From the NCBI RefSeq assembly GCF_039555335.1, contig NW_027305501.1, positions 787,501 through 851,500 on the forward strand: DNA of 64,000 nt, read 5' to 3'. The notes beneath the pieces are model-generated. The model had not been told where the DNA came from and did no database searches. It worked only from the letters and a program-made list of their open reading frames with translations. The translations under genes and the position numbers were made by a program. Source of the DNA: Amphiura filiformis (lineage: Eukaryota; Echinodermata; Ophiuroidea; Amphilepidida; Amphiuridae). This document shows, one piece after another, positions 13,601 through 58,650 of the stretch (position 1 is the stretch's first letter; each line of letters starts with the position of its first letter).

Positions 13601-13963
13601 TAATTCCTAATATCTCTAGTCTTTGTTTGCTTTGGCTAAATCCTTTCCAAGTGGTGGGTTAAGCAACAATTAAAAATGGAGGACATTCCTGAGCCTTGTT
13701 GACTTAAGAATGATTTGAATTGACCGCCAATATGATCAAATTATATTTATTACCAGCAATGTGGTAAAAGAGACATAATGTAGCACCAAAATCAGGTACC
13801 CTTTTGCTGAAGCAACAAACCATAATTCCGCTTCTGGATATCGTTTATGATAAACATCTGGATAAAGCTTATGATATATATTTTCTAAACACGAAATTGA
13901 CCGGGTCGACTTTACGAGCGTTTCGTGATGGACGGTCACATATAGCTAAATATTGAACGTTTT
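10649..13963. other. Unassigned AT-rich DNA
   Basis: 3.3 kb without a supported gene, RNA gene or repeat pair. Reading frames of 60-80 codons here overlap on both strands and show no domains. The end includes long T and A runs. Confidence 0.5.
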
Positions 13964-15610
13964 AAGGGATCTGGAATGAGCGTTTTGAGCGTTTCGACAG
14001 TATTTTTGTGGGACATGAGAGCACATCAGACATATCGAATTGCATTCTGAATACGAAGAATGTCTTTCTGATATCAAATAATTTTCATTTTTGAAATTCA
14101 CGATACAATACAAATTTTATTACAAATTATTAAAATTTGATATATTTCACATTTTTGCTGAACCATGTTATCAGCCTATAAGAGTAAATGTTACTAGCTT
14201 ACTTACTAGCTTACTTACTAGCTTACTTACTAAGTTACTAGCTTACTAACTGACTAACCATTTGGTCTGAAATGGACATATCTCTAAATGCCACGAAGGT
14301 ATGACCCCATGAGTGGTGTCATATGAAAGAGGACAACATAAAGAATATAATAAAAATATTTCCAAACGTCGGAGGTCATCCAGGGGTCACAGGGGTCAAA
14401 AAAGGTCATTTTAACTGAAAATGCTCCGATTGAGCTTAAATTTAAATGCAATGATCCTTGTGACATTCTAAACATGTTTTAAACATTTAAAAATTTATTT
14501 AAGGTCATTAAGGGGTCATAAAGGGGTCAAAGGTCAAGGTTCTCAAAATGCTCCAATTGAGCTGAAATTTAAAAGCAATGATCCTTATGACATTCTAAAC
14601 ATTTAAAAAATATTTTAAGATTCATTTAAGGTCATTAAAGGGGTTATAAAGGGGTCAAAGGTCAAATTTTCCAAAATGCTCCGATTGAACTGAAATTTAA
14701 ACGCAATGATCCTTATGACATTCTAAACATGTTGAAAATATTTTAAGATTCATTTAAGGTCATTAAGGGGTTATAAAGGGGTCAGAGGTCAAGTTTTCCA
14801 AAATGCTCCGATTGAACTGAAATTTAAACGCAATGATCCTTATGACATTCTAAACATGTTGAAAATATTTTAAAATTCATTAAGGGGCAATAAAGGCATC
14901 AAAGGTCAAGTTTTCAAAATGCTTCAATTGAGCTGAAATTTAAATGCAATGATCCTTATGATATTCTTAACATGTTTTAAATATTTTAAAACTCATTTAA
15001 TGTCATTAAAGGGGTCATACAGAGGTCAAAAGTCAAGTTTTCAAAATGCCAGCTTCTCACTATCAAGGTACCGGTATATTAAAACAGCAATTAATGAAAC
15101 AGTCTTATTAAAATTAATACTATCCTGCACAGTATTGCTGCTTGATCAGATCGTCACAGTCATCCGCCTAACTTACCTCGTGCCCTTGCAAAGGGCACAG
15201 TTGCTCTAGTTTATTTTATATTCTTTACTTTTCCTCTTTCATTAACACCACTTGGGCGGTCATACCTTCGTAGCATTTCAAGATTATGTCCATTACAGAC
15301 TCCGGGTGACAGTGGTATAGGCCTACCACAATATACTGCCGAAGCCACATGGTTCAGCTATGGTGCGGTTATCGCTCTAGTTGATATATAACAGTCCTCG
15401 AAGTAAATTTTATAAATCTAATGTTATATTCTTAAAGTGTATTTAGCTGGGAGGAAAAGTGACGATCAATTGAAAATTTTGACCTTTCATATTGAAGATA
15501 TGGATTTTTTTCCCAAAAAGACCTATTTTTTTTGGTGTTTTGGGAAAAAATCCATATCTTCAATACGAAAGGTCAAAAAATTTTAAAGCGGGTTTGTTAC
15601 TTTTTTTGAG
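13964..15610. repeat. Palindromic MITE (family A), split by an insertion
   Basis: 13964-14160 matches one arm of the complete element at 44007-44671 (start AGGGATCTGGAATGAGCG; shared CATATCGAATTGCATTCTG). 15384-15600 matches that element's central part, including the hairpin around GAAGATATGGATTTTTT. The arm at the far right is missing. The intervening 14161-15383 is foreign sequence (see the next entry). Other family A copies lie at 19745-19937 and 28109-28301. Confidence 0.8.
14272..15294. repeat. TIR-bounded segment with 127-bp tandem array
   Basis: The ends AATGGACATATCTCTAAATG and its imperfect complement at 15258-15294 (both containing GAAGGTATGACC or GGTCATACCTTC) suggest an inserted element. 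Inside are about five copies of a unit whose marker ATGCTCCGATTGAGCTGAAA falls at 14423, 14550, 14678, 14805, 14921 and a truncated 15048, giving spacings of 127, 128, 127, 116 and 127. Each unit has GGGGTCAAAGGTCA-like sequence. Just upstream (14192-14255) is a short run of TTACTTACTAGC repeats. Confidence 0.8.
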
Positions 15611-15872: not shown

Positions 15873-15956
15873 CATAGGGCCTGCACTTTGGCTCGTTTTT
15901 TGCAGGTTTACATGGTCCAATAATCACAAGATGACTGACATGTGGTAACAAAGGAA

Positions 15957-18229
15957 CAGAGATGTATCGTTCGAGTCCGGACTCGGACTCGAGTCCGGAC
16001 TCGAGTCCACTTTTTGTTAGACTCGGACTTGGCTCGGACTCGGACACAAAAAGACTCGGCTCGGCTCGGACTCGGACACAAAAGGACTCGGACTCGAAGG
16101 CGAGTCCGGTCCGAGTCCAGTCCAATGTCCAATCCTATGTAAAATGTGAAATGATTATCTAAAAATGTAAAAATAGATCTCAAATTTGTTGACTTTACTT
16201 ATTTGGCCATTTTCCAAATTAATTGGGGCTGTCAAATCTGTGACCTGTTATTATTCCTACATATCCACCAAATTATTTACATTTATCTGTCACTTAGCAG
16301 AATCATATTTTTGTTATCATTTAAAATGAAATAATTGATAATTAATCAAATGCATAATTTTATTAAATATTTGGACTATATAAAAATTTCTACAATGTAA
16401 GACTTCTTTCATGGAACTTTCCAATCCATTAAGCTCTTGAAAGAGAAACATGCACACTGGACTGGACGATACATCTCAGCTCCCACTCAGTAGGGCTATA
16501 GTTTGCATGTGCTCAGTAAGTGAGTACACATGACATTTGTGTGGGCCAATTTTGAAAATATGTTTAGAATTATAAAGGTGAATTTCTGTTAGTATTATTA
16601 TTATTATAATGATGATGATGTTAATTTTCTATAATGTATTTGAATATATTGCAATTCATTTACATGTAATACTGCACACAGCCTATAGGTATGCCAGGCA
16701 AACCTATCTGCTAGTCAGCCAAATTCGCCTAGAACACAATACATATTATCATAGAAATTTAAAAGAACAGGTAGGTCAAGGAAACCTACATAAATATGTT
16801 GTCTATATTTCACTTGACCCAAATATATGATTTTTTTATGGCGATGAGACACTCGCACATGGAATTTTGACCTGGATTTTGATAGCAGTTCCACATAGAA
16901 AAGCTGCTATCATCATGAGACTAAGATCTAGAAACACCACCGAAATATCAGACAAACTAGTACCTAGACCAGTGACTTTGACTCGCGTAGTGAAGCGAAC
17001 ACTGCTTAGCAATGACTTGAACAAGGACGCATACCCGGACGCAAGCAAGCAGATAATGTTCGCGTCTACAGAACAGGTTGCATTTGACGCGGGCGATAAC
17101 GGCGCAGTAACCACGCAACCGAGAGCGTCAGAATGTACGCGATTATCTCCGCGCCTAGTAACCCCGTCAATTCGTCAATATCACCTTGGATACAGGGCTT
17201 CACCTCCCGCTGTGGTAAGGGATGGGCAGTCATAGGTCCAGGTGGTATGTCTATGACCGAAATGTTGTTTTGTTAGCTGAATGGAATCTTTTTGATGAAA
17301 GTCAATCTTTGACAAGATGTAACTTTGCTACGGAAAGTGCTATGACAAAACGGTTTTCAGTTTTGAGTTTATTTACTCCAGGGCTTTAATTTGATATATA
17401 AAATGATGCAGTTTGATGGCAAATTTGAATTCACCTGGCACACCTACAGCCTTGTCCCTAGGCACAATTAAGTTAACTGTGAGTTTACATGTAGTGTGCT
17501 ACACACACACCCCCACACACAAAATACCCCCACGTGCCTGCTGTCTGATAGTCTTGATACAGGTACTAGGTGGTCTGATACGTGTAGTTTTTACCTTTAG
17601 GAGTAACCTATTCATGGACATGAAGAAAGTGTGTACGGTTGGTTGGTTGAGTCAACAGTGTTGGGTGGGGTTTGGTAGAGTGGGGTGTGGTGTGATGCAG
17701 GGAGTGACCTTCTCATCACATTTCTACAATTTTATCATCACAATGCCATAAAATTATGCGGAAACTTTAAAATTGACCTTTTTCAGCAAATTTGTATTGT
17801 AAATTTTTCAAATAAGAAATAAAATATAAAATTTGGCTCCATTTTTGCAAATAATGACCCATTTTTTCAAAATGTTGTACCAAATGACCCCTTTTTTCAA
17901 AATTTTATACCCAATTACCCCTTTTTCATTTTGTTATACCCAAACTAAGCAATGCCAATAGGTAGATACCTGTCACATTAAAGTTGAATGACCCCCCCCA
18001 CCACCACCACCACCGGCATGGACTCTCACCCCGAGTCCGGACTCGAGCCGGACTCGAGTCCGGACTCGGTCTTATTTTGTTGGACTCGGACTTGGCTCGA
18101 CTCAGCACCCCTGGACTTGGACTCGAGTCCGGACTCGGACACAAAAGGACTCGGACTTGGCTCGGACTCGGATACAAATGGACTCGGCTCGGCTCGGACT
18201 CGGACAAGCTGGACTCGGGTACAAGTCTG
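15957..18229. mobile_element. hAT-type element with subterminal GGACTCGAGTCC arrays
   Basis: The 8-bp duplication CAAAGGAA lies at 15949-15956 and 18230-18237. The right arm of the inverted pair has the uninterrupted site with one CAAAGGAA at 29810-29817. The ends are CAGAGATGTATCG and, inverted, CAGACTTGTACCCGAG. An 8-bp duplication and CAG-starting ends are hallmarks of the hAT superfamily. Just inside each end is an array of CGGACTCGAGTCC units (about 15965-16125 and 18025-18220), itself self-complementary. The interior is AT-rich, with a moderately GC-rich island at 16850-17240. No hAT transposase domain is recognisable. Confidence 0.88.
16867..17235 (+). CDS. Hypothetical 122-residue frame inside the hAT element
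   Basis: This open frame lies in the only part of the hAT element with higher GC content and balanced composition. The protein is basic at the start (RKAAIIMRLRSRN) and has no motif I recognise, in particular no hAT dimerisation or zinc-finger signature. The opposite strand is also open over much of the same stretch (16836-17114), which weakens the case. It could be a captured host fragment or chance. Confidence 0.2.
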   Translation: MTWILIAVPHRKAAIIMRLRSRNTTEISDKLVPRPVTLTRVVKRTLLSNDLNKDAYPDASKQIMFASTEQVAFDAGDNGAVTTQPRASECTRLSPRLVTPSIRQYHLGYRASPPAVVRDGQS

Positions 18230-18599
18230 CAAAGGAAGCAGTCACTGCAATTTGATTATGTCCCATATGATTGGCCATTCAAGACACCCATGTGAATATA
18301 CTATAGCGGCCTTTTCAAAATATAATACCTGTTTGCTTGATTGCATTGACAATACCCGGGAACAATAGGCCTACACACAGTATATGCATTAGACAAACTT
18401 TTTACAATAAGCATGATAAGTGATGATGTGACCTCCAGATTTATACATCGTTCGTCTCGCACACTGACAACATTTGATTGAATGGACTGTAGGCTACTGC
18501 GCCGTGATTACGGTGTAGGACACTTTTCAAATCCTTTGTTTGGAGCCAATCAATAAAAGCATGCAGGGCCTCTATACTCATGTACAGTTTATCCCTTAC

Positions 18600-19445
18600 A
18601 TAACCTATGTCTTGAATAAGCTGGCAAAGTTATGTAATAATCGGATTAATACTATATATATAGCAGTAGGTAAAAATAAGTTTTGAATAATCCGCGCTAC
18701 AAAGTCCCATTCAGTGATCCCAGCGAAAGTGAAAAAAAAAATCAAATTGTTACGTTTATAAATTTTTTTAATGAAAAACAAATGGCAAAAAAACAAAACA
18801 GGAAAACGACAGTATTGACGAAGTTGAAGCCCCATTCAAATACATGTAGCTAATTTATATACTGTCAGTACCGGTATATAAATTACAGACTCACGTAAAT
18901 GCATTATTTTTTGCCTTAGACACACGGCTTTCGGCTGAACCACTGCACTAGCAAGCTTTGTTAGCACATCTATGACAATGACGAAAGGTACAAAATCAGC
19001 CATGTAAGGCCTTTAGATAGCAGAAGACACCAAATGACCAAATTGGTGTTTTATGACCTTTGACATTCTTTTGTGGCGAGTGACATGGTCTTTCAATTCA
19101 CGCCGAGTGTCCTTGACAGGTTTGACTATGCTTCAGTGGTCATGAAAGAATTCAAAAGATAACCTCTGCCCCAATAATCCCAAGCAATTGTCTGAAACTG
19201 CTCCTCGGATCATAAGAACTCAGTCCTCAAATGATAGTCATAGTAATGTCCAAAATATAAAAATTACTGACTATCATTGAAGACCGAGTTCCGCAGTCTA
19301 GTATCCAAAATCTGAATTTTGATGATTTTTACGACCGTCGGGATGAAAAAAAAAATCACTGAATATTCCTTTAGTTCCCTCCTCTCCTTACCCTGGCAAT
19401 ATAAATCAAAGAAAAATAAATAAAACAAGAAAAGAAAAAAAAAAG
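18600..19445. repeat. Internal inverted arm (left) of the 5.4-kb unit
   Basis: The sequence from about 18600 to 19445 is matched in inverted orientation by about 22320-23045. Shared blocks include TTCACTTTCGCTGGGATCAC, GAAGCCCCATTCAAATA, GGACACTCGGCGTGAATTGA and TTAGTTCCCTCCTCTCCTTA. Identity is lower than between the two whole units, so this internal fold-back is older than the 5.4-kb duplication. Confidence 0.85.
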
Positions 19446-19937
19446 ACAAAGAAAATTATGAAATAATACTAGTAATAATTATCGGGAATGGTTTCTGTTA
19501 ATTTTGAGCTGAAATAATAAGGTAAAGTGAAAGAAACACTGCTTGTTATTTTGGCCGTTTAACACGCAGTTCTATGGGAGGACATTATGACTTTATGTCG
19601 AACTTTGCTCTATTTACCTACAAACACAAGCAATTTGGCTGATTCCATTTAGGTGCAAGTTGTAAACATTACAAATATGCTAAAAAATCAGGTTTGAAAA
19701 AAATTAACCAAATTCATATTATAAGATCGTACATTATGACTTTAAGGGATCTGGAATGAGCGTTTTGAGCGTTTCGATAGTATTTTTGTGGGACATGAGA
19801 GCACATCAGACATATCGAATTGCATTCTGAATACGAAGAATGTCTTTCTGATATCAAATAAATTTCATTGAAATTTATGATATAATACAAATTTTATGAC
19901 AAATTATTAAAATTTTATATTTTTCACATTTTTGATA

Positions 19938-21066
19938 CAGGCTGTATCAAAATGATTGGTACCGAAGACTTTTAATTTTTTGCAGATTTTTTAAAACTAT
20001 TTTTGTGCCAGTTTGGGGTTAATTGTTTAAATATGTGTAATTATAGTAGTGTTATCTTCTCTAAGAATTTTAGATCATAAAGATAGCACATTCTATTCAG
20101 AAGTTACAGGATTCTAAAGGAAAGTAGGTGTTTTTACACTTTTCATCGTAACGCTGGATCAGTAGAGCACCATTTTCAAAGCTCTATTTTAATGCAAATA
20201 CCTTGTGAGGATGATATGTTGAAAATCATGGAAATGTTTAATATTTTCCCTGCCTATTTTTTAATTCATAATATATATCAATGTAATAATCAATATTTAT
20301 TGCTTGAGAGTAATATTATTCACTTGAATAATTTAGGTGGGATGAAAGAAGTTTGTGTATCAACACCATCCAGGGCGGTAATTTAAGTTGTATTTTTGAG
20401 ATTACTCTAAGTAGATGGTGTGCCAGAATGGCTATACTGTAGACAGTGTAAGTTAGTTTAGACCTGGTAAGAGTTATTGGAATGGCTCCACAGTTTTCCA
20501 CACTTCAGTGTGCATTCATAGTTAAGAATCACTGGTCGACACGAAGCTATAGAGAAGTACAGGGAAGATTTAGGAGACAGTTTCTAAGAGCAAGGCGTAT
20601 CCCATGCAAACATGCTATAACTTGCAATGCTTCAAAATTTGATATGGGCAGTTATAGAATGGACCCATCCCAGTTGTTAAGTTCTTTCAAGATAGGGCTT
20701 CACCTCACACTGCCTGGGTCGTAAGGCAAGGACTTCAGGAACTATCTTTCTAAAAGCATGTGCAAAGCAATTTTATGTTATGTATACTGAGGTGAGATAT
20801 TGAAAGTATGTATGCAATAAATGGTGCAAGCAGTGAACCTATTCATCTTGTGTTGTGTAAGTAAAACCATAATTACGTCGATCTTCGTTTATATGACAAT
20901 AGCTCCCAGATGCATCAACCTATCAACTTCAGATTAATAGATCAATAAGTTAACATATGCCCTTTCTATTTATAGTACAAAAACTATATTAATTAGCAAT
21001 TTTATATTTTTGATATATTTTTGAAAATGTCATATAGCCCGGTACCAATCATTTTGATACACCCTG
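19938..21066 (+). mobile_element. TA-flanked mariner-like element, nested (left copy)
   Basis: The ends are CAGGCTGTATCAAAATGATT and, inverted, CAGGGTGTATCAAAATGATT, each flanked by TA. It interrupts a family A MITE: 19745-19937 and the block from 21067 (TATAACAGTCCTCGAAGT) are joined in family A elsewhere. It encodes only the short frame described next and lacks the catalytic DDE part, so it is a non-autonomous deletion derivative. The identical nesting at 26980-28108 shows it was present before the host unit was duplicated. Confidence 0.88.
20482..20724 (+). pseudogene. Truncated mariner-type transposase N-terminus (HTH, DUF4817-like)
   Basis: 80 codons starting MAPQFSTLQCAFIVKNHW. The arrangement FS-x-FIVK-x-W-x-T-S-x-REV-x-x-RF-x-x-F fits the N-terminal helix-turn-helix (DUF4817) found on mariner-like transposases, which binds the element's inverted repeats. 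The catalytic DDE domain is absent: the frame ends at TAA after about 80 residues, where a full protein would have about 350. The second copy (27323-27565, minus strand) has Lys for Asn at residue 17, the only protein difference. The family assignment is from pattern recognition and should be tested with a profile search. Confidence 0.6.
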
Positions 21067-22113
21067 TATATAACAGTCCTCGAAGTAAATATCATAAATC
21101 TAATGATATATTCTTAAACAGTCCCTGGCATACCATACATGTATAGTCCTATGTATAGTAATTTTGCTTTATCTGTTTTGTGCTGTTTAAACAAATAGTT
21201 AAACATAATTTCCATAAAATGTAAGCTTTTACTGTCAGATATGTCCCCTTTTAATTTTGAGCAGAACAAGTGAGGTAAAGCAAAGAGGTGTGTGTGTGTG
21301 TGGGGGTGCGTATGTGTGTCCTGCACGCGTATTTTTTTTCTGTAACTATAATGGGACGCAATACGATACCGGTATGTTATAAGAATCAAACTTACAAGAA
21401 AAATGGCTCTTGTCAAATCCTACAATTCTGTCAGAGAAAATATGCATATTTGCATTAAATTTTTAATTAATTGACATAATTGATTAATTAATAAATATTT
21501 TATTTAATGATTTACCATAATTCCAAACATGTCAAACAATGTGTCAAATTAAAGCTAATTAAATGCTTTATAAATTGGTCAGATAGAGCACATTTTGCAG
21601 AATGCATTTAGTATTTTAGTTACATGACTCCAAACATTCTATTCCAATTCCAAGGAGCTGTACTTTTAAAATCCGCGCCTAATCAATAATAATAGTCTTT
21701 CACTCCATTGTCAAACCTAGAGTGTGATGGTTTTGTAGCAGATGACAGTGCTCATTCAAGCCTGTCAAGGTCAGTTAGTAGCCACTTGCTGAATGGATGG
21801 CCATTATCAGCTATCAAAGAGATGCCTTGTGCAGCTGCCAATCACAGTAGAGGTTTGATAACATTTTGTTAAAAACCCAAATGTGATATAAGGACAAAGC
21901 TGTGCATGTTGGTACTTTTAATTGTTTGGATTCTTATGTTGAAATGCCCTTGTATTAGTATTTTTATGTGTAGTGTATATTGTTCATAAATTATATAGCT
22001 TTTAAATTATGGGCATTTTTGCTCTGTTGCACTGTACCATTATGGAATATGAGCAAATCAATTACCGACACAAGCAGGTATACAGTGCATTATTTTATTT
22101 TTATTTCGTATCT

Positions 22114-22211
22114 CAGGAGCACAGCTCACTTGGTAAGGCATCAGAATTTTGTTCACGAGCGCTTCGAACTTTAAATCGGAAGGTGGTGAGTTCGAGCCTC
22201 ATCACGGTCAC
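22114..22211 (+). repeat. tRNA-derived SINE head (left unit)
   Basis: GGAGCACAGCTCACTTGGTA resembles an A box and GGTGAGTTCGAGCCTCATCA a B box, separated as in a class II tRNA with a long variable arm. A T/C-rich tract follows (22250-22330). The stretch cannot fold into a normal tRNA with an intact anticodon arm, so I call it a SINE head or tRNA pseudogene rather than a tRNA gene. The same sequence is at 25833-25930 on the minus strand. Confidence 0.65.
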
Positions 22212-22319
22212 ATTAATTTTATATACCAAATATTGTTCGAACTTTTCATATTTGTTTTTCTTTTATTGTTTCTTTTCTTTGTCTTTTTTTTCTTGTTTTC
22301 TTTTTTTTCTTCTTTTTTT

Positions 22320-23045
22320 TTCTTTGATTCATATTGCCAAGGTAAGGAGAGGAGGGAACTAACGGCCCATTCAGTGATTTTTTCATCCGGACGATCGTAA
22401 AAATCATCAAAATTCAGATTTTGTACTGCGGAACTCAGTCTTCAATGATATAGTAGTCAGTAATAATCTTTTGGTCATTATATGACTATCATCATTTGAC
22501 GACTGAGTTCTTATGATACATCATCCGAAAAACAGTTTCAGACAATTGCTTGGGATTGTTGGGGCAGAGGTTATCTTTTGAATTCTTTCATGACCACTGA
22601 AGCAGAGTCAAACATGTCAAGGACACTCGGCGTGAATTGAACTGACCATGTCACTCGCCACAAAAAGAATGTCAAAGGTCATAAAACATCAATTTGGTGT
22701 CTTCTGCTAGTGGTTCAGCCAAAAGCCGTGTAGGCCTATTTAAGACAAAAATAATGCATTTACGTGAATCTGTAATTACAGACAGTATATAAATTAGCTA
22801 CATGTAGGCCTATTTGAATGGGGCTTCAACTTCGTCGATACTGCCGTTTTCTTGGGTTTTTTGCCAATTTTTTTAATTAAAAATTTTAATAAAAGTAACA
22901 ATTTGATTTTTTTTTTTCACTTTCGCTGGGATCACTGAACTGGGCTTTGCAACGCGATAGGCCTATATTCAATACTTGTATTCACCTACTGTTATAGCAT
23001 TAGTCCGATTATTACACAACTTCGCCAGCGTATTCAAGACATACA
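22320..23045. repeat. Internal inverted arm (right) of the 5.4-kb unit
   Basis: This is the inverted partner of about 18600-19445. Beyond it, 23040-23300 includes a block (GATTACGGTGAAGGACACCG, GGTTCAAATCCTTTG) that recurs at about 18500-18545 in direct orientation and at 46810-46870. GGTTCAAATCC is close to a Pol III B box, so this block may also descend from a tRNA-like promoter. Confidence 0.75.
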
Positions 23046-23561
23046 ATGCAAATAATCATCTAGATTATGACGTAGCATACCGTAAATATGGCGGAGTACT
23101 CAAATTCATTCAACAAAAGCATGATTACAAGCTATTGCAATCTACCGCGACATCTCACACACATAACAAATTTAATGCACTATACGATCAAATAGGTTGA
23201 CGACAACGTTTGATTGAATGCACTGCATTGCGCCATGATTACGGTGAAGGACACCGGTTCAAATCCTTTGTATGGAGCCAATCAATAATTTCACGCACAT
23301 CCTCTATTATTGCCAAATTATTGCCCGAGATGATTGCACACTGTAAAAGAGCTATTGTTATAATGTTTGATGAAATCGTGTTTAACTATTTGCTTAAGAA
23401 CGGCACAATACAGATAAAGCAGACAGATTTACTACATGTGGTACATGTATATACATAATAGGGAATGTGTGTGAGTCGAGTATTACCTAATTATAATAGG
23501 GGCGTATCCAAAAATGAATTCACGCCCCTTTCAAATGTCGAGCCAAAGTGCAGGCCCTATG

Positions 23562-24480
23562 CCGGTTTTGACTGTTCAGACTATTTAAGCCCACGGAGAG
23601 TGGGGGGGGGGCACTCCCATATATTGACATACGTCATGTGCCCATAAAAAGACCCCGGTATTTTGCAGGGGCGTAGCAAGCGGGGGGCAGGGTGGACGAA
23701 GTCCATGGGCCCCGCGTGTTCAGGGGGCCCGAACACAAAAGCGAAAATTAAATAAGGGCTGATGAGAACAGTGCCGGATTTACCATTGGACCATTTGGGG
23801 GCCCCAAAGTTGCCATATGCATCTTTCTTTTAACCCCAATATATGTATTTTTGGTGAAAATTGTAAAATTTTCTGCGCTTCGCACGCATTCAAATAGCAA
23901 ATTTCATGTTGGTCTGTGGCTAAAATAGTCTGAAATTGAATTTTTACGCGTGCTTTGCGCGCAAATGTCCTAGTATATAATAATCGGAACAAAATATGTT
24001 AGTCCCCCTCATAATACGTAAACCAAAACTTGACCACTGATTTGAGTGCACATGCCTTCCGCAGCACGTGAGTTCAGGGCTTCCAAATTTTGGCCTGGCC
24101 CAAGGCCAAGGCCTCCATAAGATAAATCCCGCCCTGGTTAAAAGGGCCCGTAGGCCTACTGCTCCTTGTCCATGGGCCCCTGATGCTCTTGCTACGCCCC
24201 TGTATTTTTGGCAAATCATACACCCAATGACCCTGGGTTTTTTTAGTAGCCTACAATGAGTGGCCCCCTTACTTTAACAATTAGTCCTCATAATTGAAAT
24301 TTCGCATTTTGAGCAAAATAAATGAGTTTCCTATATTTTGCACTGTATAATTGGGTAAAAAGCTATTTTTGACCGTCAATGATGCGAAATTTTGGGCGCT
24401 CCCATATAAATCACCCCATTTTTGACATTGCCAACACCGAATGACCCCCTTTTCCTCAAAATCTTTACACCGATAGACCC
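23562..24480. other. Spacer between the two inverted 5.4-kb units
   Basis: 919 bp not shared by the arms. Outside its central hAT insertion it is a low-complexity repeat with phrases like CAATGACCC and CTCCCATATA, similar to fragments at 17800-17940 and 41800-42000. A run of ten G lies at 23603-23612. No gene. Confidence 0.7.
23666..24202. mobile_element. Short hAT-type MITE in the spacer
   Basis: The ends are CAGGGGCGTAGCAAG and, inverted, CAGGGGCGTAGCAAGAGC, with flanks GTATTTTG and TATTTTTG. The flanks agree with a degraded 8-bp duplication that has a one-base change in the T run. The size is 537 bp, with no transposase. CAGTGGCGTAG-like ends also occur singly at 9023 and 51099, suggesting related fragments. 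Confidence 0.75.
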
Positions 24481-25832
24481 CATAGGGCCTGCACTTTGGC
24501 TCGACATTTGAAAGGGGCGTGAATTCATTTTTGGATACGCCCCTATTATAATTAGGTAATACTCGACTCACACACATTCCCTATTATGTATATACATGTA
24601 CCACATGTAGTAAATCTGTCTGCTTTATCTGTATTGTGCCGTTCTTAAGCAAATAGTTAAACACGATTTCATCAAACATTATAACAATAGCTCTTTTACA
24701 GTGTGCAATCATCTCGGGCAATAATTTGGCAATAATAGAGGATGTGCGTGAAATTATTGATTGGCTCCATACAAAGGATTTGAACCGGTGTCCTTCACCG
24801 TAATCATGGCGCAATGCAGTGCATTCAATCAAACGTTGTCGTCAACCTATTTGATCGTATAGTGCATTAAATTTGTTATGTGTGTGAGATGTCGCGGTAG
24901 ATTGCAATAGCTTGTAATCATGCTTTTGTTGAATGAATTTGAGTACTCCGCCATATTTACGGTATGCTACGTCATAATCTAGATGATTATTTGCATTGTA
25001 TGTCTTGAATACGCTGGCGAAGTTGTGTAATAATCGGACTAATGCTATAACAGTAGGTGAATACAAGTATTGAATATAGGCCTATCGCGTTGCAAAGCCC
25101 AGTTCAGTGATCCCAGCGAAAGTGAAAAAAAAAAAAATCAAATTGTTACTTTTATTAAAATTTTTAATTAAAAAAATTGGCAAAAAACCCAAGAAAACGG
25201 CAGTATCGACGAAGTTGAAGCCCCATTCAAATAGGCCTACATGTAGCTAATTTATATACTGTCTGTAATTACAGATTCACGTAAATGCATTATTTTTGTC
25301 TTAAATAGGCCTACACGGCTTTTGGCTGAACCACTAGCAGAAGACACCAAATTGATGTTTTATGACCTTTGACATTCTTTTGTGGCGAGTGACATGGTCA
25401 GTTCAATTCACGCCGAGTGTCCTTGACATGTTTGACTCTGCTTCAGTGGTCATGAAAGAATTCAAAAGATAACCTCTGCCCCAACAATCCCAAGCAATTG
25501 TCTGAAACTGTTTTCGGATGATGTATCATAAGAACTCAGTCGTCAAATGATGATAGTCATATAATGACCAAAAGATTATTACTGACTACTATATCATTGA
25601 AGACTGAGTTCCGCAGTACAAAATCTGAATTTTGATGATTTTTACGATCGTCCGGATGAAAAAATCACTGAATGGGCCGTTAGTTCCCTCCTCTCCTTAC
25701 CTTGGCAATATGAATCAAAGAAAAAAAAAAGAAGAAAAAAAGAAAACAAGAAAAAAAAAAGACAAAGAAAAGAAACAATAAAAGAAAAACAAATATGAAA
25801 AGTTCGAACAATATTTGGTATATAAAATTAAT

Positions 25833-25930
25833 GTGACCGTGATGAGGCTCGAACTCACCACCTTCCGATTTAAAGTTCGAAGCGCTCGTGAACAAAATTC
25901 TGATGCCTTACCAAGTGAGCTGTGCTCCTG
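25833..25930 (-). repeat. tRNA-derived SINE head (right unit)
   Basis: Mirror copy of 22114-22211, with A-box-like and B-box-like blocks intact. Confidence 0.65.
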
Positions 25931-26979
25931 AGATACGAAATAAAAATAAAATAATGCACTGTATACCTGCTTGTGTCGGTAATTGATTTGCTCATATTCC
26001 ATAATGGTACAGTGCAACAGAGCAAAAATGCCCATAATTTAAAAGCTATATAATTTATGAACAATATACACTACACATAAAAATACTAATACAAGGGCAT
26101 TTCAACATAAGAATCCAAACAATTAAAAGTACCAACATGCACAGCTTTGTCCTTATATCACATTTGGGTTTTTAACAAAATGTTATCAAACCTCTACTGT
26201 GATTGGCAGCTGCACAAGGCATCTCTTTGATAGCTGATAATGGCCATCCATTCAGCAAGTGGCTACTAACTGACCTTGACAGGCTTGAATGAGCACTGTC
26301 ATCTGCTACAAAACCATCACACTCTAGGTTTGACAATGGAGTGAAAGACTATTATTATTGATTAGGCGCGGATTTTAAAAGTACAGCTCCTTGGAATTGG
26401 AATAGAATGTTTGGAGTCATGTAACTAAAATACTAAATGCATTCTGCAAAATGTGCTCTATCTGACCAATTTATAAAGCATTTAATTAGCTTTAATTTGA
26501 CACATTGTTTGACATGTTTGGAATTATGGTAAATCATTAAATAAAATATTTATTAATTAATCAATTATGTCAATTAATTAAAATTTAATGCAAATATGCA
26601 TATTTTCTCTGACAGAATTGTAGGATTTGACAAGAGCCATTTTTCTTGTAAGTTTGATTCTTATAACATACCGGTATCGTATTGCGTCCCATTATAGTTA
26701 CAGAAAAAAAATACGCGTGCAGGACACACATACGCACCCCCCCCACACACACACACACCTCTTTGCTTTACCTCACTTGTTCTGCTCAAAATTAAAAGGG
26801 GACATATCTGACAGTAAAAGCTTACATTTTATGGAAATTATGTTTAACTATTTGTTTAAACAGCACAAAACAGATAAAGCAAAATTACTATACATAGGAC
26901 TATACATGTATGGTATGCCAGGGACTGTTTAAGAATATATCATTAGATTTATGATATTTACTTCGAGGACTGTTATATA

Positions 26980-28108
26980 CAGGGTGTATCAAAATGATTG
27001 GTACCGGGCTATGTGACATTTTCAAAAATATATCAAAAATATAAAATTGCTAATTAATATAGTTTTTGTACTATAAATAGAAAGGGGCATATGTTAACTT
27101 ATTGATCTATTAATCTGAAGTTGATAGGTTGATGCATCTGGGAGCTATTGTCATATAAACGAAGATCGACGTAATTATGGTTTTACTTACACAACACAAG
27201 ATGAATAGGTTCACTGCTTGCACCATTTATTGCATACATACTTTCAATATCTCACCTCAGTATACATAACATAAAATTGCTTTGCACATGCTTTTAGAAA
27301 GATAGTTCCTGAAGTCCTTGCCTTACGACCCAGGCAGTGTGAGGTGAAGCCCTATCTTGAAAGAACTTAACAACTGGGATGGGTCCATTCTATAACTGCC
27401 CATATCAAATTTTGAAGCATTGCAAGTTATAGCATGTTTGCATGGGATACGCCTTGCTCTTAGAAACTGTCTCCTAAATCTTCCCTGTACTTCTCTATAG
27501 CTTCGTGTCGACCAGTGCTTCTTAACTATGAATGCACACTGAAGTGTGGAAAACTGTGGAGCCATTCCAATAACTCTTACCAGGTCTAAACTAACTTACA
27601 CTGTCTACAGTATAGCCATTCTGGCACACCATCTACTTAGAGTAATCTCAAAATACAACTTAAATTACCGCCCTGGATGGTGTTGATACACAAACTTCTT
27701 TCATCCCACCTAAATTATTCAAGTGAATAATATTACTCTCAAGCAATAAATATTGATTATTACATTGATATATATTATGAATTAAAAAATAGGCAGGGAA
27801 AATATTAAACATTTCCATGATTTTCAACATATCATCCTCACAAGGTATTTGCATTAAAATAGAGCTTTGAAAATGGTGCTCTACTGATCCAGCGTTACGA
27901 TGAAAAGTGTAAAAACACCTACTTTCCTTTAGAATCCTGTAACTTCTGAATAGAATGTGCTATCTTTATGATCTAAAATTCTTAGAGAAGATAACACTAC
28001 TATAATTACACATATTTAAACAATTAACCCCAAACTGGCACAAAAATAGTTTTAAAAAATCTGCAAAAAATTAAAAGTCTTCGGTACCAATCATTTTGAT
28101 ACAGCCTG
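26980..28108 (-). mobile_element. TA-flanked mariner-like element, nested (right copy)
   Basis: 1129 bp, the same length as the left copy, with CAGGGTGTATC and CAGGCTGTATC ends and TA on both sides. It interrupts the family A MITE at the same position. Confidence 0.88.
27323..27565 (-). pseudogene. Truncated mariner-type transposase N-terminus (right copy)
   Basis: Same 80-codon frame as at 20482-20724 with one residue changed (Asn to Lys at position 17). It is open in both copies, but because the copies are nearly identical this is weak evidence of selection. Confidence 0.6.
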
Positions 28109-29892
28109 TATCAAAAATGTGAAAAATATAAAATTTTAATAATTTGTCATAAAATTTGTATTATATCATAAATTTCAATGAAATTTATTTGATATCAGAA
28201 AGACATTCTTCGTATTCAGAATGCAATTCGATATGTCTGATGTGCTCTCATGTCCCACAAAAATACTATCGAAACGCTCAAAACGCTCATTCCAGATCCC
28301 TTAAAGTCATAATGTACGATCTTATAATATGAATTTGGTTAATTTTTTTCAAACCTGATTTTTTAGCATATTTGTAATGTTTACAACTTGCACCTAAATG
28401 GAATCAGCCAAATTGCTTGTGTTTGTAGGTAAATAGAGCAAAGTCCGACATAAAGTCATAATGTCCTCCCATAGAACTGCGTGTTAAACGGCCAAAATAA
28501 CAAGCAGTGTTTCTTTCACTTTACCTTATTATTTCAGCTCAAAATTAACAGAAACCATTCCCGATAATTATTACTAGTATTATTTCATAATTTTCTTTGT
28601 CTTTTTTTTTTTTCTTTTCTTGTTTTATTTATTTTTCTTTGATTTATATTGCCAGGGTAAGGAGAGGAGGAACTAAAGGAATATTCAGTGATTTTTTTTT
28701 CATCCCGACGGTCGTAAAAATCATCAAAATTCAGATTTTGGATACTAGACTGCGGAACTCGGTCTTCAATGATAGTCAGTAATTTTTATATTTTGGACAT
28801 TACTATGACTATCATTTGAGGACTGAGTTCTTATGATCCGAGGAGCAGTTTCAGACAATTGCTTGGGATTATTGGGGCAGAGGTTATCTTTTGAATTCTT
28901 TCATGACCACTGAAGCATAGTCAAACCTGTCAAGGACACTCGGCGTGAATTGAAAGACCATGTCACTCGCCACAAAAGAATGTCAAAGGTCATAAAACAC
29001 CAATTTGGTCATTTGGTGTCTTCTGCTATCTAAAGGCCTTACATGGCTGATTTTGTACCTTTCGTCATTGTCATAGATGTGCTAACAAAGCTTGCTAGTG
29101 CAGTGGTTCAGCCGAAAGCCGTGTGTCTAAGGCAAAAAATAATGCATTTACGTGAGTCTGTAATTTATATACCGGTACTGACAGTATATAAATTAGCTAC
29201 ATGTATTTGAATGGGGCTTCAACTTCGTCAATACTGTCGTTTTCCTGTTTTGTTTTTTTTGCCATTTGTTTTTCATTAAAAAATTTATAAACGTAACAAT
29301 TTGATTTTTTTTTTTCACTTTCGCTGGGATCACTGAATGGGACTTTGTAGCGCGGATTATTCAAAACTTATTTTTACCTACTGCTATATATATAGTATTA
29401 ATCCGATTATTACATAACTTTGCCAGCTTATTCAAGACATAGGTTATGTAAGGGATAAACTGTACATGAGTATAGAGGCCCTGCATGCTTTTATTGATTG
29501 GCTCCAAACAAAGGATTTGAAAAGTGTCCTACACCGTAATCACGGCGCAGTAGCCTACAGTCCATTCAATCAAATGTTGTCAGTGTGCGAGACGAACGAT
29601 GTATAAATCTGGAGGTCACATCATCACTTATCATGCTTATTGTAAAAAGTTTGTCTAATGCATATACTGTGTGTAGGCCTATTGTTCCCGGGTATTGTCA
29701 ATGCAATCAAGCAAACAGGTATTATATTTTGAAAAGGCCGCTATAGTATATTCACATGGGTGTCTTGAATGGCCAATCATATGGGACATAATCAAATTGC
29801 AGTGACTGCTTCCTTTGTTACCACATGTCAGTCATCTTGTGATTATTGGACCATGTAAACCTGCAAAAACGAGCCAAAGTGCAGGCCCTATG

Positions 29893-43762: not shown

Positions 43763-46700
43763 TCAAGCTTTTACTTCTGGAAACTCTTCCCATGAAATCA
43801 TCGCATCGCCTGGAATAAAATAACAAAACAAAAAAACATTTGTCATATTGCGTATTCATTATTTGATTTATTGTGGGATATACTGATTGAACAATGGACT
43901 GAACCGATTTGAGCACTGCCATACTGGAAAATGTTGCCAATCAATATTCGTGAAGTCATGTGATTGACACCATTTATAGTTGTACAATATTTAAATAGGC
44001 ACCTTTAAGGGCTGGGGTATGAACGTTTGGACAGTATTTATTTTGGGAATTTAGAGCACATCAGACATATCGAATTGCATTCTGAATACGAAGAATGTCA
44101 TTCTGATATCAAATAATTTTGATTTTTGAAATTCGCAATTTAATACACATTTTATGGCAAATCATTAAAATTGATATTTTTGATATTTAACAGTACTTGA
44201 AGTAAACTTTATAAATCTGATGATTTATAATTAAAGTGTATGTAGGTGGGATGAAAAGCCGACCGATCAATTGAAAATTTTGACCTTTCGTATTGAAGAT
44301 ATGGATTTTTTTTTCCCAAAACAACAAAAAAAATTAGGTCTTTTTGGGAAAAAATCCATATATCTTCAATATGAAAGGTCAAAATTTTCAATTGATCGTC
44401 GGCTTTTCCTCCCTGCTACATACATTTTAAGAATATATCATTAGATTTATATAATTTACTTCGAGGACTGTTATATATCAAAATTTGAAAAATATCAAAT
44501 TTTTATAATTTGTCATAAAATTTGTATTATATTGTGATTTAAAAAAATGAAAATTATTTGATATCAGAAAGACATGCTTCGTATTCAGAATGCAATTCGA
44601 TAGGTCTGAGGTGCTCGCATGTCCCACAAAAAATACTGTCGAAACGCAATAAACGCTCATTTTGGATCCCTATTATTAGGTGTTTATATTTGTACATGGG
44701 CGTATCGAGAGCTGTCATAACGTGTTTATTCATTTTATTTAAAATAGCCTCACAAACCACTTTGGGCGTCACCTAGGAATTACATAGGCCCTATATAGAA
44801 ATTGAGTCATCTCAAGCGCAAGATGCTCGCCTGCTGTGTAAAGCGTTAATATGCTGTCGGGTCAGTTACCAATTTAATGGTGGAACCCTTTTGTTCGAAA
44901 CAATGATAGTATTTTCACAGGGCTGTCAACTCTCACGCATTGGCCGTGAGTTTCACGTATTGGGTCACTTTCTCACGGTCTCACGCCAAGGTAGTATAAT
45001 ATCACGCCTGAAAGTAAATCTCACGCAAAAAGCTGAAAATTGAGTAAAATCTCACGCATCGCCATGAAAAAATTGTTGTTGCTACCCCCCGCTGCTTTCA
45101 CATTTTTGAGCACCGTGGCTTAAATAATCATGGGTCAAAATGAACATTGAAGGCGGCAATTACCGGTATGCCTCTGTCTGACGACAAGCAATTCCAAAAA
45201 GTTGACAGCCCTGATTTTCATGAATTCGCCGTAGAAGAGATGATGTAATTAGGATTAACTACCATAGAGATAGGTTATAACAATTTTTGAATATATCGCA
45301 CTTATCTATTCCGTTCACACGGTACCATGTACCATTGAACCATAAATGTCAAAAAAAAACAGGGATAAAGATCTGGATCGTAATTCTATAGAATTTTTAT
45401 ATCATAATGATCCCTCGCACCTGTAAGATTAGCGGTATTGTATTTAATCTGTGATTGCGGACGTATACATTGGTGATGAGTGCAAGCTGCTTTTAGTGCA
45501 GGGCGATATATTTAAAAATTGTTTAAACTTTTGCTATGGTAGTAAATCTTGTTACATCATCACTTCTCACGGCGAATAGCCTGTCGGCAAATCAAATCGA
45601 TATCAAAGGAACAATGCGTTACGTAATCTATTGGCTCGCCATGTTTATATACGCTGTCGAAGTGATGATGTAACAGGATAGGATTAACTACCATAGCAAT
45701 AGATGAATACAATTTTTGAATAGATCGCCCTGCACAACAACGTTCACGCGGTACCTATGCATTGAACCATAGATGTCAAAGAAAGGCTGATCACTCGCAC
45801 CTGTAAGATTAGTATCTTTGAAGAGAGCGGTATTGTATTCAATTTATGATTGCAGACGTATACACAAGTGATGAGTGCAACCTGTTTGTAGTGCAGGGCA
45901 ATATATTCAAAAATTGTTTTAACCTATTGCTATGGTAGTAAATCTTGTTACATCATCACTTCTCACGGCGAATAGCCTGTCGGCAAATCAAATCGATATC
46001 AAAGGAACAATGCGTTATGTAATCTATCAGCTCGCCATGTTTATAATACGCTGTCGAAGTGATGATGTAACAGGATTAACTACCATAGCAATAGATAAAT
46101 ATAATTTTTGAATAGATCGCCCTTCACTACAACGTTCACGCGGTACCTATGCATTGAACCATAGATGTCAAAGAAATGCTGATCACCTGTAAGATAAGTA
46201 TCTTTAGTCGTGATCACACAGTCGGATATAAGTGAGTTATTACCGGTAATAAGCGACTTATAACCAGTATCAGTGACTTATTACCGGTATTAAGTGACTT
46301 AAATCCGAGTGTGTGAACACAACTTTTGAAAAGAGCGGTATTATATCCAATCTCTGATCTATGATTGCAGACATACACAGGTGATGAGTGCAACCTGCTT
46401 GTAGTTCGATCTATTCAAAAATTGTATTGATCTATTGCTATGGTAGTTAATCCGATTATTTCGTAATTTCGACAGCGTATAACCTCGCATATGAAAATCA
46501 GGAAAATTTCGGATCTGTTGCCCTTATAGAGGTTGTGCATATGACGTATCATACCGTAAAAATGCATTCAACAAATGCATGATTTCAATCTACCGCGACA
46601 GTTCAGTTGTGTTCACACTGTCGGATATAAGTGATTTATTACCGGTAATAAGCGACCTAAATCCGGTAATAGTGACTTATGACCGGTATTAAGTGACTTA

Positions 46701-47406
46701 AGTCCGACCGTGTGAACACGACTTTCGTCTCACAAACATAACAAAAATGCACTACGATCAAATAGCCTAAGGTTGACAATGGTTGATGACAACATTTGAT
46801 TGAATGGACTGCACGTGTCGTGATTACGGTGAAGGACACCGGTTCAAATCCTTTGTTTGGAGCTAATCAATAATTTCATAATAATTTCATTATAACATAA
46901 TCTTATTTGGACCTTACCATTGGCATCGTCATCCTTGAGGAACTCTACAAAGTTGTCAATTGTACCAGCAGAAGCTACCCATTCCTCCAATTGTATCTGC
47001 TTATTGCCATTCACGTCCAGAAGAGTAAACACTTCTTTCTTTGTCTTCTTTGAAGCATGCGAATCTTCTGCTGGCGCTTTAGCTTCACGTTTGAATCTGC
47101 AAACAAGCGTGTAACCTTTCATCAATAAGTATAAAAAATATGGGGGTCAAAAAAATTACCTCCTATCACAGGGGGATCAAAATATTCAGTGCATTAATAG
47201 AGGGTCAAAAACATTAAATCATAAACAAAGAAATGGAATATTTACCTATGCTCCATGCCGACTCCAACAGCTCCTGTATCTGGATCATATGTTGGGTATA
47301 CATCCGTATTGTCACCAACGGGTACCCTGCAGGACCATCCAGGTTCGGGAATCAGTAGGCCTACTAAGCAAATCAGCATCACTGCAAAAAAGAGTGTCTT
47401 GGCCAT
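43763..47406 (-). CDS. Small secreted protein with two EF-hands, three exons
   Basis: The coding exons are 47406-47246, 47096-46918 and 43809-43763 (TGA at 43765-43763). Together they give 387 nt, a 128-residue protein. Both introns have GT...AG ends (CATAG|GTAAA, TTTGCAG|ATTC, AATG|GTAAG, TTCCAG|GCG), and the phases agree. Residues 1-25 (MAKTLFFAVMLICLVGLL...) form a signal peptide with likely cleavage before Cys26. EF-hand 1 has the loop DVNGNKQIQLEE. EF-hand 2 has DANGDAMISWEE, with ligands D1, N3, D5, position 7 and E12 all suitable for calcium. Its loop is split by intron 2 after the second base pair of glycine context (phase 1), so only splicing reveals it. The protein is a compact, secreted, probable calcium-binder. 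I cannot name an orthologue. Intron 1 is 149 bp; intron 2 is 3108 bp and full of MITEs. Confidence 0.85.
44007..44671. repeat. Complete palindromic MITE (family A)
   Basis: The left arm (AGGGCTGGGGTATGAACG...) and right arm (ending CATTTTGGATCCCT) are inverted copies sharing CATATCGAATTGCATTCTG and TTGAAAATTTTGACCTTTC. The central hairpin (about 44279-44384) repeats GAAGATATGGATTTTTT on both sides. It lies inside intron 2 of the EF-hand gene. This is the reference copy for the fragments at 13.96, 15.38, 19.75 and 28.1 kb. Confidence 0.88.
44918..45213. mobile_element. hAT-type MITE with CTCACG-rich interior
   Basis: The ends are CAGGGCTGTCAACTCTCACG and, inverted, CAGGGCTGTCAACTTTTTGG. The flank ATTTTCA is present on both sides (44911-44917, 45214-45220), 7 bp of a likely 8-bp duplication. 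The interior has repeated CTCACGC words. It lies in intron 2 of the EF-hand gene. Confidence 0.85.
45225..46480. repeat. Tandem and inverted ~390-bp units in intron 2
   Basis: Two large units begin near 45505 and 45900, each containing a self-complementary pair: TTGCTATGGTAGT...TTACATCATCACTTC facing GAAGTGATGATGTAAC...ACTACCATAGCAATAG. Partial units flank them at 45215-45350 and 46320-46480. The block GTTCACGCGGTACCTATGCA is repeated in each. There is no coding signal. Confidence 0.8.
46207..46323. repeat. Small palindromic MITE, copy 1
   Basis: A self-complementary ~117-bp element built of TATAAGTGACTTATTACCGG words, ending GTGTGAACACAAC. It matches 46606-46732 in the same intron. Confidence 0.85.
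46606..46732. repeat. Small palindromic MITE, copy 2
   Basis: Ends GTTGTGTTCACACTGTCGG and, inverted, GTCGTGTTCACACGGTCGG. The interior is of ACCGGTAATAAG type. It sits within a diverged copy of the 5.4-kb unit's 23.05-23.30 kb block (46520-46880: ATCTACCGCGACA, TGATTACGGTGAAGGACACC), so it is a later insertion into that older repeat. Confidence 0.85.
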
Positions 47407-52033: not shown

Positions 52034-52445
52034 CAATTATTAAACTGATTTGCTTCTCTTGGCTCTTCGGTGTTTACTAACGCAAATATCGTGCAACAAT
52101 TAAATCAAATCATTAAACTGACTTGCTTCACTTGGCTCTGCGGTGTTTACTAACGCAGATATCGTACAACAATTAGATCAAATCTTTAAACTCATTTGCT
52201 TCACTTAGCTCTGCGTGTTTACTAAAGCAGATATTGTACAACAACTAATTTGCTTCACTTGGCTTTAGCTCTGCGGTATTTACTAAAGCAGATATCGTAC
52301 AACAATTAGATGAAATCATTAAACTGATTTGCTTCACTTGGCTTTGCGGTGTTTACTAAAGCAGATATCGTACAACAATTAGATCAAATCATTAAACTGA
52401 TTTGCTTCACTTGACTCTGCGGTGTTTACTAATTTAGATATCGTA
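52034..52445 (-). repeat. 73-bp satellite array, left part
   Basis: About six units of a ~73-bp repeat (marker GATTTGCTTCACTTGGCTCT, then TTTACTAAAGCAGATATCGT, ACAACAATTAGATCAAATC), one with an internal deletion. It continues at 56284 after the inserted element. Confidence 0.9.
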
Positions 52446-53032
52446 CAGGATGTCCCAAAAAGAAGAGGCCCCTCATTGCGCCCTCTTTTTCTCCTATTTC
52501 TGAAAAGTTGATCAAATATATTTTGGTATGTAAAGAAACCTTGAGTTGTTAGCTTAAATAAACCAAAACAATTATATCAATCGGCTCACAACTTTTGAAG
52601 ATATGCTCTTTCAAAGAAATGTATCCGTTTTTCACTCTGTCCACGGAGAAGGTTTCGCTACTTCAAAGATTGAAAAGGAGTACACATACCATGCATTAAT
52701 ATCAAACATTCCTCAATGATAACTTTATAAAATAACTTTATTTATGGAATGGGCTTTACCGGTGGGTTTATGGGCAATGGATTTTGCAAATAGTGTCACT
52801 AATTTGTGGGTAAAATGGATGCCGAATGGGACTTCTTTTGCTTTACTTGCAATTACTTATTTTTTCTTGGTTGTTTATGCCTTTTTGTTTTATCTTTCTT
52901 ACTTTCTTACTTTGTTGTTTCTTGCTTTTTTCTTTTTTTTTTATTTACAACATAAGTAATTTCTAATTTAGGATAAAAGGTAGCCCTAAAAGGCAGTTTG
53001 GTTTGTATTTAGTTCTTCTGAAGTGAGTTTAC

Positions 53033-53260: not shown

Positions 53261-53441
53261 TTCTGTTTGCTATCCGTGGACAGAGTGAAAAACGGGTATT
53301 TTTATTCAAAAGGGCATATCTTCAAAAGTTGTGAGCCGATTGAAATAATTGTTTTTGTTTATTAAAGCTAACGATTAAAGGTTTCTTTACATATCAAAAT
53401 ATATTATTTTGTAAATTAAATCAAATACTGGAACTAAAATT

Positions 53442-53492
53442 TGCAACTCACTTTGCTACGTTGCGTCCGAAAACATCGGACTTCGTCAGGCA
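53442..53492 (-). ncRNA. Hammerhead-ribozyme-like motif, sense copy at the 3' end of the Penelope element
   Basis: The order is stem I UGC, core CUGACGA, stem II GUCCGA/UCGGAC closed by a short loop, GCAA, a ~2-bp stem III with loop, GUU, then GCA pairing back to stem I. Hammerheads with a very short stem III are known in terminal repeats of Penelope-like elements. The core GAAA is here GCAA, one substitution at a normally invariant position, which predicts low or no cleavage. Confidence 0.6.
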
Positions 53493-55971: not shown

Positions 55972-56072
55972 AACATTATTTTGTAAATTAAATCAAATAC
56001 TGGATACTTAAATCAAATTCCTCGCCGTCTGACGTCACAACATCTGACGTCATCACAACATCTTCAATCAGA

Positions 56073-56123
56073 TGCCTGACGAAGTCCGATGTTTTCGGAC
56101 GCAACGTAGCAAAGTGAGTTGCA
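56073..56123 (+). ncRNA. Hammerhead-ribozyme-like motif, inverted copy at the head of the Penelope element
   Basis: Same sequence as 53492-53442, in opposite orientation to the coding region, carrying the same GCAA variant. Because both copies share the change, it was present before the inverted end formed. Confidence 0.6.
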
Positions 56124-56283
56124 AATTTTAGTTCCAGTATTTGATTTAATTTACAAAATAATGTTTTGAACTACTGGATGAATAATCTACACCAAGATAT
56201 ATCAAAATATATTTAATCAACTTCTCAGAAATAGGAGAAAAAGAGGGCGCAATGAGGGGCCTCTTTGTTTTTGGGACACCCTG

Positions 56284-56646
56284 TACAACAATTAGGTCAA
56301 ATCTTTAAACTGATTTGCTTCACTTGGCTCTGCGTGTTTACTAAAGCAGATATCGTACAAAAATTCGATCAAATTATTAAACTGCTTTGCTTCACTTGGC
56401 TCTGCGGTGTTTACTAAAGCAGATATCGTACAACAATTAGATCAAATCATTAAACTGATTTGCTTCACTTGGCTCTGCTGTGTTTAATATTTAGATATCG
56501 TACAACAATTAGATAAAATCATTAAACTGATTTGCTTCACTTGGCTCTGCGGTGTTTGCTAAAGCAGATATCGTGCATCAATTAGATCAAATCATTAAAC
56601 TGATTTGCTTCACTTGACTCTGCATTTACTAACGCAGATATCGTAT
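56284..56646 (-). repeat. 73-bp satellite array, right part
   Basis: About five more units of the satellite seen at 52034-52445. The last unit (56582-56646) is inside the GPCR coding region. Confidence 0.9.
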
Positions 56647-58042: not shown

Positions 58043-58104
58043 TGTCAGTGTTCAGTTTTAGTAGCGTCTTACGATGGAAACATTTCAATATAGAATATTC
58101 CTTG

Positions 58105-58650
58105 ACTCAAAGGCAATATCGAGCTCAATGGCATATGGTTATCCATGAAGATGACTGTTCCGATTTTAGGTAGTGCTGGAACTGCTTCGCGCGTAGGTTG
58201 TCACATCAGATGAAAATGAAAGCACAATATTTTAAATTGCCTACGTGTAATTTGCATTCAACTGGTAATAAAATGTCAAACTGGCTTCGCAATTCAGTTT
58301 GAAAAGAATTTTTTACATGTTGCCAAATGTTGCAGGTTAGCCAGAGCTTTTGTCATCGACCACAAGTCACAATTCTCAAATCTCAAAGGCAATATCGAAC
58401 TCAATGGTATATGGTTATCCAAGAAGATGTTCCGATTTCAGGTGATGTTGGAACTGCTTCGCGCGTAGGTAGTCACATCAGATGAAAATGAATGCACACT
58501 ATTTTAAATTGCCTACGTGTAATTTGCATTTAACTGGTAATAAAATGTCAAACTGGCTTCGCAATTCAGTTTGAAAAGAAATTTTTACATGTTGCCAAAT
58601 GTTGCAGGTTAGCCAGAGCCTCTGTCATCGACTACGAGTCCTATCTGACA
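58105..58650. repeat. Tandem duplication (277 bp) upstream of the GPCR
   Basis: 58105-58381 and 58382-58650 are direct copies (CTCAAAGGCAATATCGA; TGGAACTGCTTCGCGCGTAG; CAGTTTGAAAAGAA). They differ by a few substitutions and a small deletion. They begin 63 bp upstream of the start codon and so probably include 5' UTR or promoter. No other copies are seen in the window. Confidence 0.9.

Follow-up and report, generated by a model that had tools for sequence, protein, structure and literature searches.

A 5.4-kb unit with perfect 23-bp terminal inverted repeats, present as an inverted pair in Amphiura filiformis: a probable non-autonomous DNA transposon

A window of 64,000 nucleotides from the Amphiura filiformis genome (RefSeq assembly GCF_039555335.1, contig NW_027305501.1, positions 787,501 to 851,500, forward strand) contains two nearly identical units, A and B, which lie in inverted orientation and are bounded at every limit by the same 23-bp inverted repeat. 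The unit, 5.4 kb long, is in our view likely to be a DNA transposon of the terminal inverted repeat (TIR) type, non-autonomous, which would have been mobilised in trans and copied locally. All coordinates are positions in this window.

Units A and B and their termini

BLAST self-comparison of the window, with gaps counted, gave an inverted match of 99.55% between 18230-23561 and 24481-29817; 15873-15956 also matched 29810-29892. When both match pairs were joined, two inverted units with common outer limits were obtained:

15873-23561, + strand: unit A, TIR-bounded, 7689 bp in total with the hAT-like insert that splits it
24481-29892, - strand: unit B, inverted counterpart of unit A without the hAT-like insert, 5412 bp
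15873-15895, + strand: 23-bp TIR, left end of A (L end of the unit)
23539-23561, - strand: 23-bp TIR, right end of A (R end of the unit)
24481-24503, + strand: 23-bp TIR, left end of B (R end of the unit)
29870-29892, - strand: 23-bp TIR, right end of B (L end of the unit)
15957-18229, unstranded: hAT-like insert, in A only, 2273 bp, ends CAGAGATGTA../..TACAAGTCTG
15949-15956 (left) and 18230-18237 (right), unstranded: 8-bp target duplication CAAAGGAA, perfect
23562-24480, unstranded: spacer, 919 bp

A preliminary description of this DNA had given the four limits 15873, 23561, 24481 and 29892, the inverted orientation and a 919-bp spacer, all of which were confirmed. Its title, which spoke of two 5.4-kb units, is accurate for B but not for A, which carries the 2273-bp extra insert, a feature on which that description was silent. 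Without this insert and one copy of its duplication, unit A measures 5408 bp.

Substitutions between A and B were found at 3 of 5399 aligned positions (0.056%, 95% interval 0.011-0.16%), and there were no diverged islands along the alignment. The 17 gaps were all (17/17) located in single-base runs at least 3 long; such runs account for 1282 of the 5412 bases of unit B. Gaps distributed in this way resemble consensus errors of long reads, or slippage, and the substitutions are therefore the better clock for the pair. At each of the four junctions the flanking sequence is different. A search at low stringency, in which low-complexity sequence was filtered, detected no homology between the flanks of A and those of B, the exception being a weak inverted match of 79 bp (72%, E = 0.001) between the right flank of B and the spacer.

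The perfect 23-bp inverted repeat CATAGGGCCTGCACTTTGGCTCG, also reported in the preliminary description, is present at four of the four unit ends and is inverted within each unit, so that TIRs lie exactly at both limits of separate copies, as in TIR transposons. The unit termini are CA..TG. A search with the first 20 bp of the repeat, allowing up to 3 mismatches, returned four matches in the window and none in 100 shuffles. The same four ends were the only matches in the 64-kb window to the whole 23-mer at up to 7 mismatches, and nothing beyond them was found with the first 11 bp when one mismatch was allowed. As a control, 200000 segments of 5412 bp were drawn at random from the window; 24 of them had a perfect terminal inverted repeat of even 8 bp.

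Inward of the 23 bp the L and R ends of the unit diverge, and a search of the outermost 400 bp at each end found no motif of 8-10 bp that occurs at least three times. Folding, carried out without a shuffle control, predicted a 7-bp stem at the L end, pairing the TIR with the DNA directly internal to it. Near the R end the predicted stem has 8 bp and is located inside the repeat and not outside. A subterminal stem, GGGGCGT..ACGCCCC, was observed at 24514-24543, just within the R end; the L end folds otherwise.

The insert in unit A ends with CAGAGATGTA and, on the opposite strand, CAGACTTGTA. Unit B represents its empty site, in which CAAAGGAA is present once. The insert is younger than the duplication that gave A and B, unless B also carried it once and has lost it without leaving a trace. 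Its 8-bp target duplication and its CAG..CTG termini are of the kind seen in the hAT superfamily; no family was recognised by Pfam in the single open frame tested (16831-17235).

Origin of the pair

Copying of the whole unit is the best reading of these data because four of the four limits fall on the repeat and the contents match save for the 3 substitutions. This part of the preliminary description, according to which the unit was copied via its ends together with older passengers, can stand. The statement that this happened recently cannot be taken as established, because gene conversion is able to keep inverted arms of 5.4 kb identical when they lie 0.9 kb apart.

In the explanation that we favour, a transposase encoded elsewhere in the genome would bind the 23-bp ends and move all that lies between them, in this case older dead repeats that form a mosaic. 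One of the two units would have been copied to a nearby site in the opposite orientation, the probable route being local transposition at about the time of replication, and would have integrated without a target duplication or with a very short one. The hAT-like element landed in A later, unless B has since lost it. In line with the preliminary description, which saw no transposase, none was recognised: six strings, covering 2174 of 3588 translated letters, matched no Pfam family at cut-off, and the sole sub-cut-off match in the unit pieces was DUF5494 (E 0.066). The open frames of unit A at 20452-20724 and 22006-22362 had no Pfam family, and the longest frame wholly in the unit and clear of the hAT-like insert has 118 amino acids (aa) from stop to stop. 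The absent transposase match and the short longest frame agree with a non-autonomous state.

Several observations weigh against this explanation. The Pfam test covered open pieces of at least 35 aa and, of the 3588 translated letters, all but 1414. The exact 20-bp end had no match in viral or in prokaryote contig collections, and neither a relative nor an autonomous partner was found there. Mobility is deduced from one pair, since just two copies are known, side by side, and their termini match no superfamily for which termini were compared. Finally, the target duplications expected from the preliminary description were looked for, and none of at least 3 bp was present at offset 0 in any of the six pairings of the four flanks (6/6), in duplication or same sense. 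The flanks are TTATTTTGTT^CCGGTTTTGA for unit A and CGATAGACCC^CCTAGTTTCG for unit B. At offsets of up to 3, two pairs (A left/A right and A left/B right) gave the best match, 6 bp long with a single mismatch, and perfect 3-bp matches were obtained for A left/A right and A right/B left; these are weak, as perfect 4-bp matches in duplication sense occurred in 143 of 2000 random pairs at the same offsets. Unit B is compatible with a duplication of 0, 1 or 2 bp (CC), and unit A shows none. Both right flanks start with CC and A has TT on its left side, so that a 2-bp CC duplication would need two changes beside a unit which has 3 in 5399 positions. Given the lack of a target duplication, the transposase would make none or one of 1-2 bp, or end joining would have completed the integration.

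The flanks also led us to reject three arrangements. A single composite element spanning 15873-29892 has outer flanks without a common duplication of at least 3 bp at offset 0; an inversion of the spacer between two units is not supported either, as no duplication of that size appears after the inner flanks are swapped; and a doubling of alleles is at odds with flanks that are not homologous.

The main alternative for the near-identity, though a rather unlikely one, concerns date and history and is compatible with the unit being a TIR element: two copies would have been inserted long ago, and gene conversion between the arms would have prevented them from diverging. In that case the near-identity would carry no information on recent movement. 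Inverted 5.4-kb arms 919 bp apart provide the geometry for arm-to-arm conversion, the conversion tracts would likewise end at the unit limits, and a greater age agrees with lost target duplications. Arm-to-arm conversion is described for sex-chromosome palindromes in excerpts of PMC3403216. Yet conversion did not erase the 2273-bp insert in A, the substitutions number only 3 over the full length with no diverged islands, and the origin of two exact-ended copies would be left unexplained. We regard as improbable a segmental inverted duplication through an error of replication or repair such as template switching, in which the limits would fall on inverted repeats by mechanism and not through a transposase. 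The copies are inverted, adjacent and without target duplication, and repair events need leave none; however, both limits of both copies coincide with the exact outer base of the 23-bp repeat, and no flank was carried along at either end, though a break-driven event would be expected to take some.

Very little credence is given to an assembly artefact, in which two alleles, or one unit read twice, were placed side by side. The very few substitutions, and the 17 of 17 length differences in homopolymer runs, which is the pattern of long-read consensus error, would be accounted for in this way, whereas A and B do not have allelic flanks, A alone has an insert with a clean 8-bp duplication, and the arms are parted by the 919-bp spacer, so that the sequence does not turn back on itself at one point. 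It is highly improbable that the unit is a rolling-circle element of the Helitron2/Helentron type, inserting without target duplication. Such elements resemble the unit in having no target duplication (none of at least 3 bp here) and possible hairpins near both ends, namely the 7-bp L-end and 8-bp R-end stems predicted above. According to excerpts of PMC3627910, Helitron2 has asymmetric repeats of 8-15 bp, the 3' one being subterminal, and excerpts of PMC4067079, PMC8969392 and PMC3627910 describe Helitron2 and Helentrons as having no duplications, asymmetric or subterminal repeats and T targets. The repeats of the unit, in contrast, are perfect, symmetric and fully terminal, its R-end hairpin is within the repeat and not outside it, and the T-rich target rules do not hold at B. 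The rules for Helitron and Helitron2 do not hold for the unit, which shows neither a 5' TC and 3' CTRR with an A^T target nor asymmetric TIRs with a T target.

Comparison with known systems

Animal non-autonomous TIR (cut-and-paste) transposons and large elements resembling miniature inverted-repeat transposable elements (MITEs) share with the unit short perfect TIRs, passengers inside, exact-ended duplication as a whole and, as far as the partial test goes, the lack of a transposase; the unit differs from them in that both copies are without a target duplication of at least 3 bp. Because a target duplication of fixed length was not found, the term TIR transposon is used here in the sense that the unit works like one. 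The whole unit does not conform to hAT, since the 8-bp target duplication seen at the insert in A is absent from the unit itself. EnSpm/CACTA, P, Academ and Transib, with target duplications of 2-3 bp (EnSpm), 7-8 bp (P), 3-4 bp (Academ) and 5 bp (Transib), were compared by duplication length only; 2 bp at B would fit EnSpm, and A fits none.

The Spy group (PHIS superfamily) resembles the unit in being TIR-bounded. Spy elements insert without a target duplication (excerpts of PMC4482050 and PMC11304231); here unit A shows none and unit B allows 0-2 bp. Excerpts of PMC11304231 list Spy TIRs of 15, 26 and 27 bp, besides others of 167 and 467 bp, and report that in human cells about 60% of 8810 sites were at AAWTT; a strong, though not absolute, preference of Spy for AAATTT is stated in excerpts of PMC4482050. 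In this respect the unit differs, as neither of the two sites here (0/2), TTTTGTT^CCGGTTT and GATAGACCC^CCTAGTTT, fits the AAATTT rule.

For ISL2EU and PIF-Harbinger, the duplication is AT or TWA and the TIR usually starts with GG (ISL2EU) or A/G (PIF/Harbinger), according to excerpts of PMC4482050; the units do not follow these rules. The flanks likewise lack the TTAA target duplication of piggyBac and Kolobok (rule taken from excerpts of PMC9587614). KolobokP elements, which the same excerpts (PMC9587614) record from animal genomes including echinoderms and lancelets, are composite-like; their terminal repeats are long and direct, their termini are RR..YY and their duplications are mainly of 3-5 bp. 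The paired repeats on both sides of a middle stretch are a common feature, but here the pair is inverted, the termini are CA..TG and there is no 3-5 bp duplication.

In Repbase, the classification of non-autonomous elements relies largely on the sequence of their termini, on the target duplication and on characteristics of the TIRs, and two elements are placed in one superfamily when they have the same duplication length and the same first 11 bases (excerpts of PMC4455052). A Repbase entry with these ends may already exist. Neither 14-base end term was found among the matches listed by a literature text search, which is no claim of absence from print. It is unlikely that the pair represents an undescribed TIR lineage, one with no target duplication and no AAATTT preference, which would move multi-kilobase non-coding cargo locally and in inverted orientation.

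Interior, spacer, surroundings and significance

The nested older elements mentioned in the preliminary description lie in matching places in A and B, as borne out by the self-comparison. In the coordinates of unit A, the interior includes:

18466-18575, + strand: direct repeat R, copy 1, 80% identity to its partner 23202-23307; relative at 46728-46878
23202-23307, + strand: direct repeat R, copy 2
18606-19455, + strand: inner inverted repeat, left arm, about 80-85% alike with its partner 22273-23043; also in B
22273-23043, - strand: inner inverted repeat, right arm, partner 18606-19455
19741-21118, unstranded: old dispersed repeat between the inner arms, common to A and B
19936-21070, + strand: mariner-like relic that divides the old dispersed repeat, TA at each end

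As the inner arms are only about 80-85% alike, these passengers are far older than the copying event, or than the last conversion, between A and B. Relatives of the old dispersed repeat were found at 13961-14157 with 15381-15578 and as a palindrome at 44020-44671, a palindromic form of the repeat found inside the units; an uninterrupted form is visible near 44180. We presume from its termini that 19936-21070 is of the mariner kind; the tested piece of it had no Pfam match. A short interspersed nuclear element (SINE), which the preliminary description counted among the passengers, was not confirmed, as ARAGORN found no tRNA gene and no Rfam family passed the gathering threshold, although a worn tRNA-derived SINE could elude both programs. 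What we take to be a B-box-like motif lies near 22190, the SINE being unconfirmed.

Outside the units, a cluster of related repeats was observed at 45224-46890. It includes a stretch (45641-45784) resembling the outer end of the units' inner arms in 97 of 152 aligned columns and, at about 46603-46722, a short element with ends similar to GTTCACAC..TGTGAACAC.

Near its start, the spacer has a poly-G run followed by CACTC..TGTGCCCA, the inverted form of which is found in the right flank of B by direct alignment. This alignment had a local score of 48, the best of 500 shuffles being 34; without the poly-G run the score was 23, a value also attained in 51 of 5000 shuffles and, among 2000 random 60-mers drawn from the window, in 2. 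Just before B, GACCC occurs twice, 33 bp apart (24443 and 24476); the left flank of B ends after the second, which the right flank of B would extend to GACCCCC. B may thus have inserted into a single older repeat, made up of the spacer and about 80 bp of the right flank of B and having poly-G/CACTC..TGTGCCCA at its ends in inverted form. This suggestion is moderately supported, mostly by the poly-G run, and its support is weaker without that run; such an interruption would speak for the favoured explanation of the unit. The spacer also contains:

23666-24202, unstranded: hAT-like MITE with CAGGGGCGTAGC termini, 537 bp

The hAT label of this MITE is an assumption of ours. Its flanks, TATTTTG and TATTTTT, were read as an imperfect target duplication.

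Further along the window, the remains of a retroelement, presumably Penelope-like, occupy 53720-55992 (- strand), between two arrays (52035-52447 and 56283-56645) of one 73-bp satellite, and have an RVT_1 match at 54494-54979 (E 2.9e-5, under the Pfam cut-off). A 146-bp perfect inverted repeat (53403-53548 and 56017-56162) lies near both sides of these remains. A frame of 489 codons for a rhodopsin-type receptor was found at 56582-58051 (- strand; 7tm_1, E 5.8e-61); the end of this frame runs into the 73-bp satellite at 56283-56645, and directly upstream of the frame is a 272-bp tandem duplication (58106-58640, 92% matches).

If other genomic copies agree, the pair would add a TIR family without visible target duplications, a trait that the papers cited here report for Spy among TIR elements, and would show that dead repeats, nested in one another, can be carried along as a non-coding block. 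Should the identity of A and B be due to arm-to-arm conversion, they would provide a small example of the maintenance of a transposon-seeded palindrome. Either way the effect would be modest and the mechanism of a known kind.

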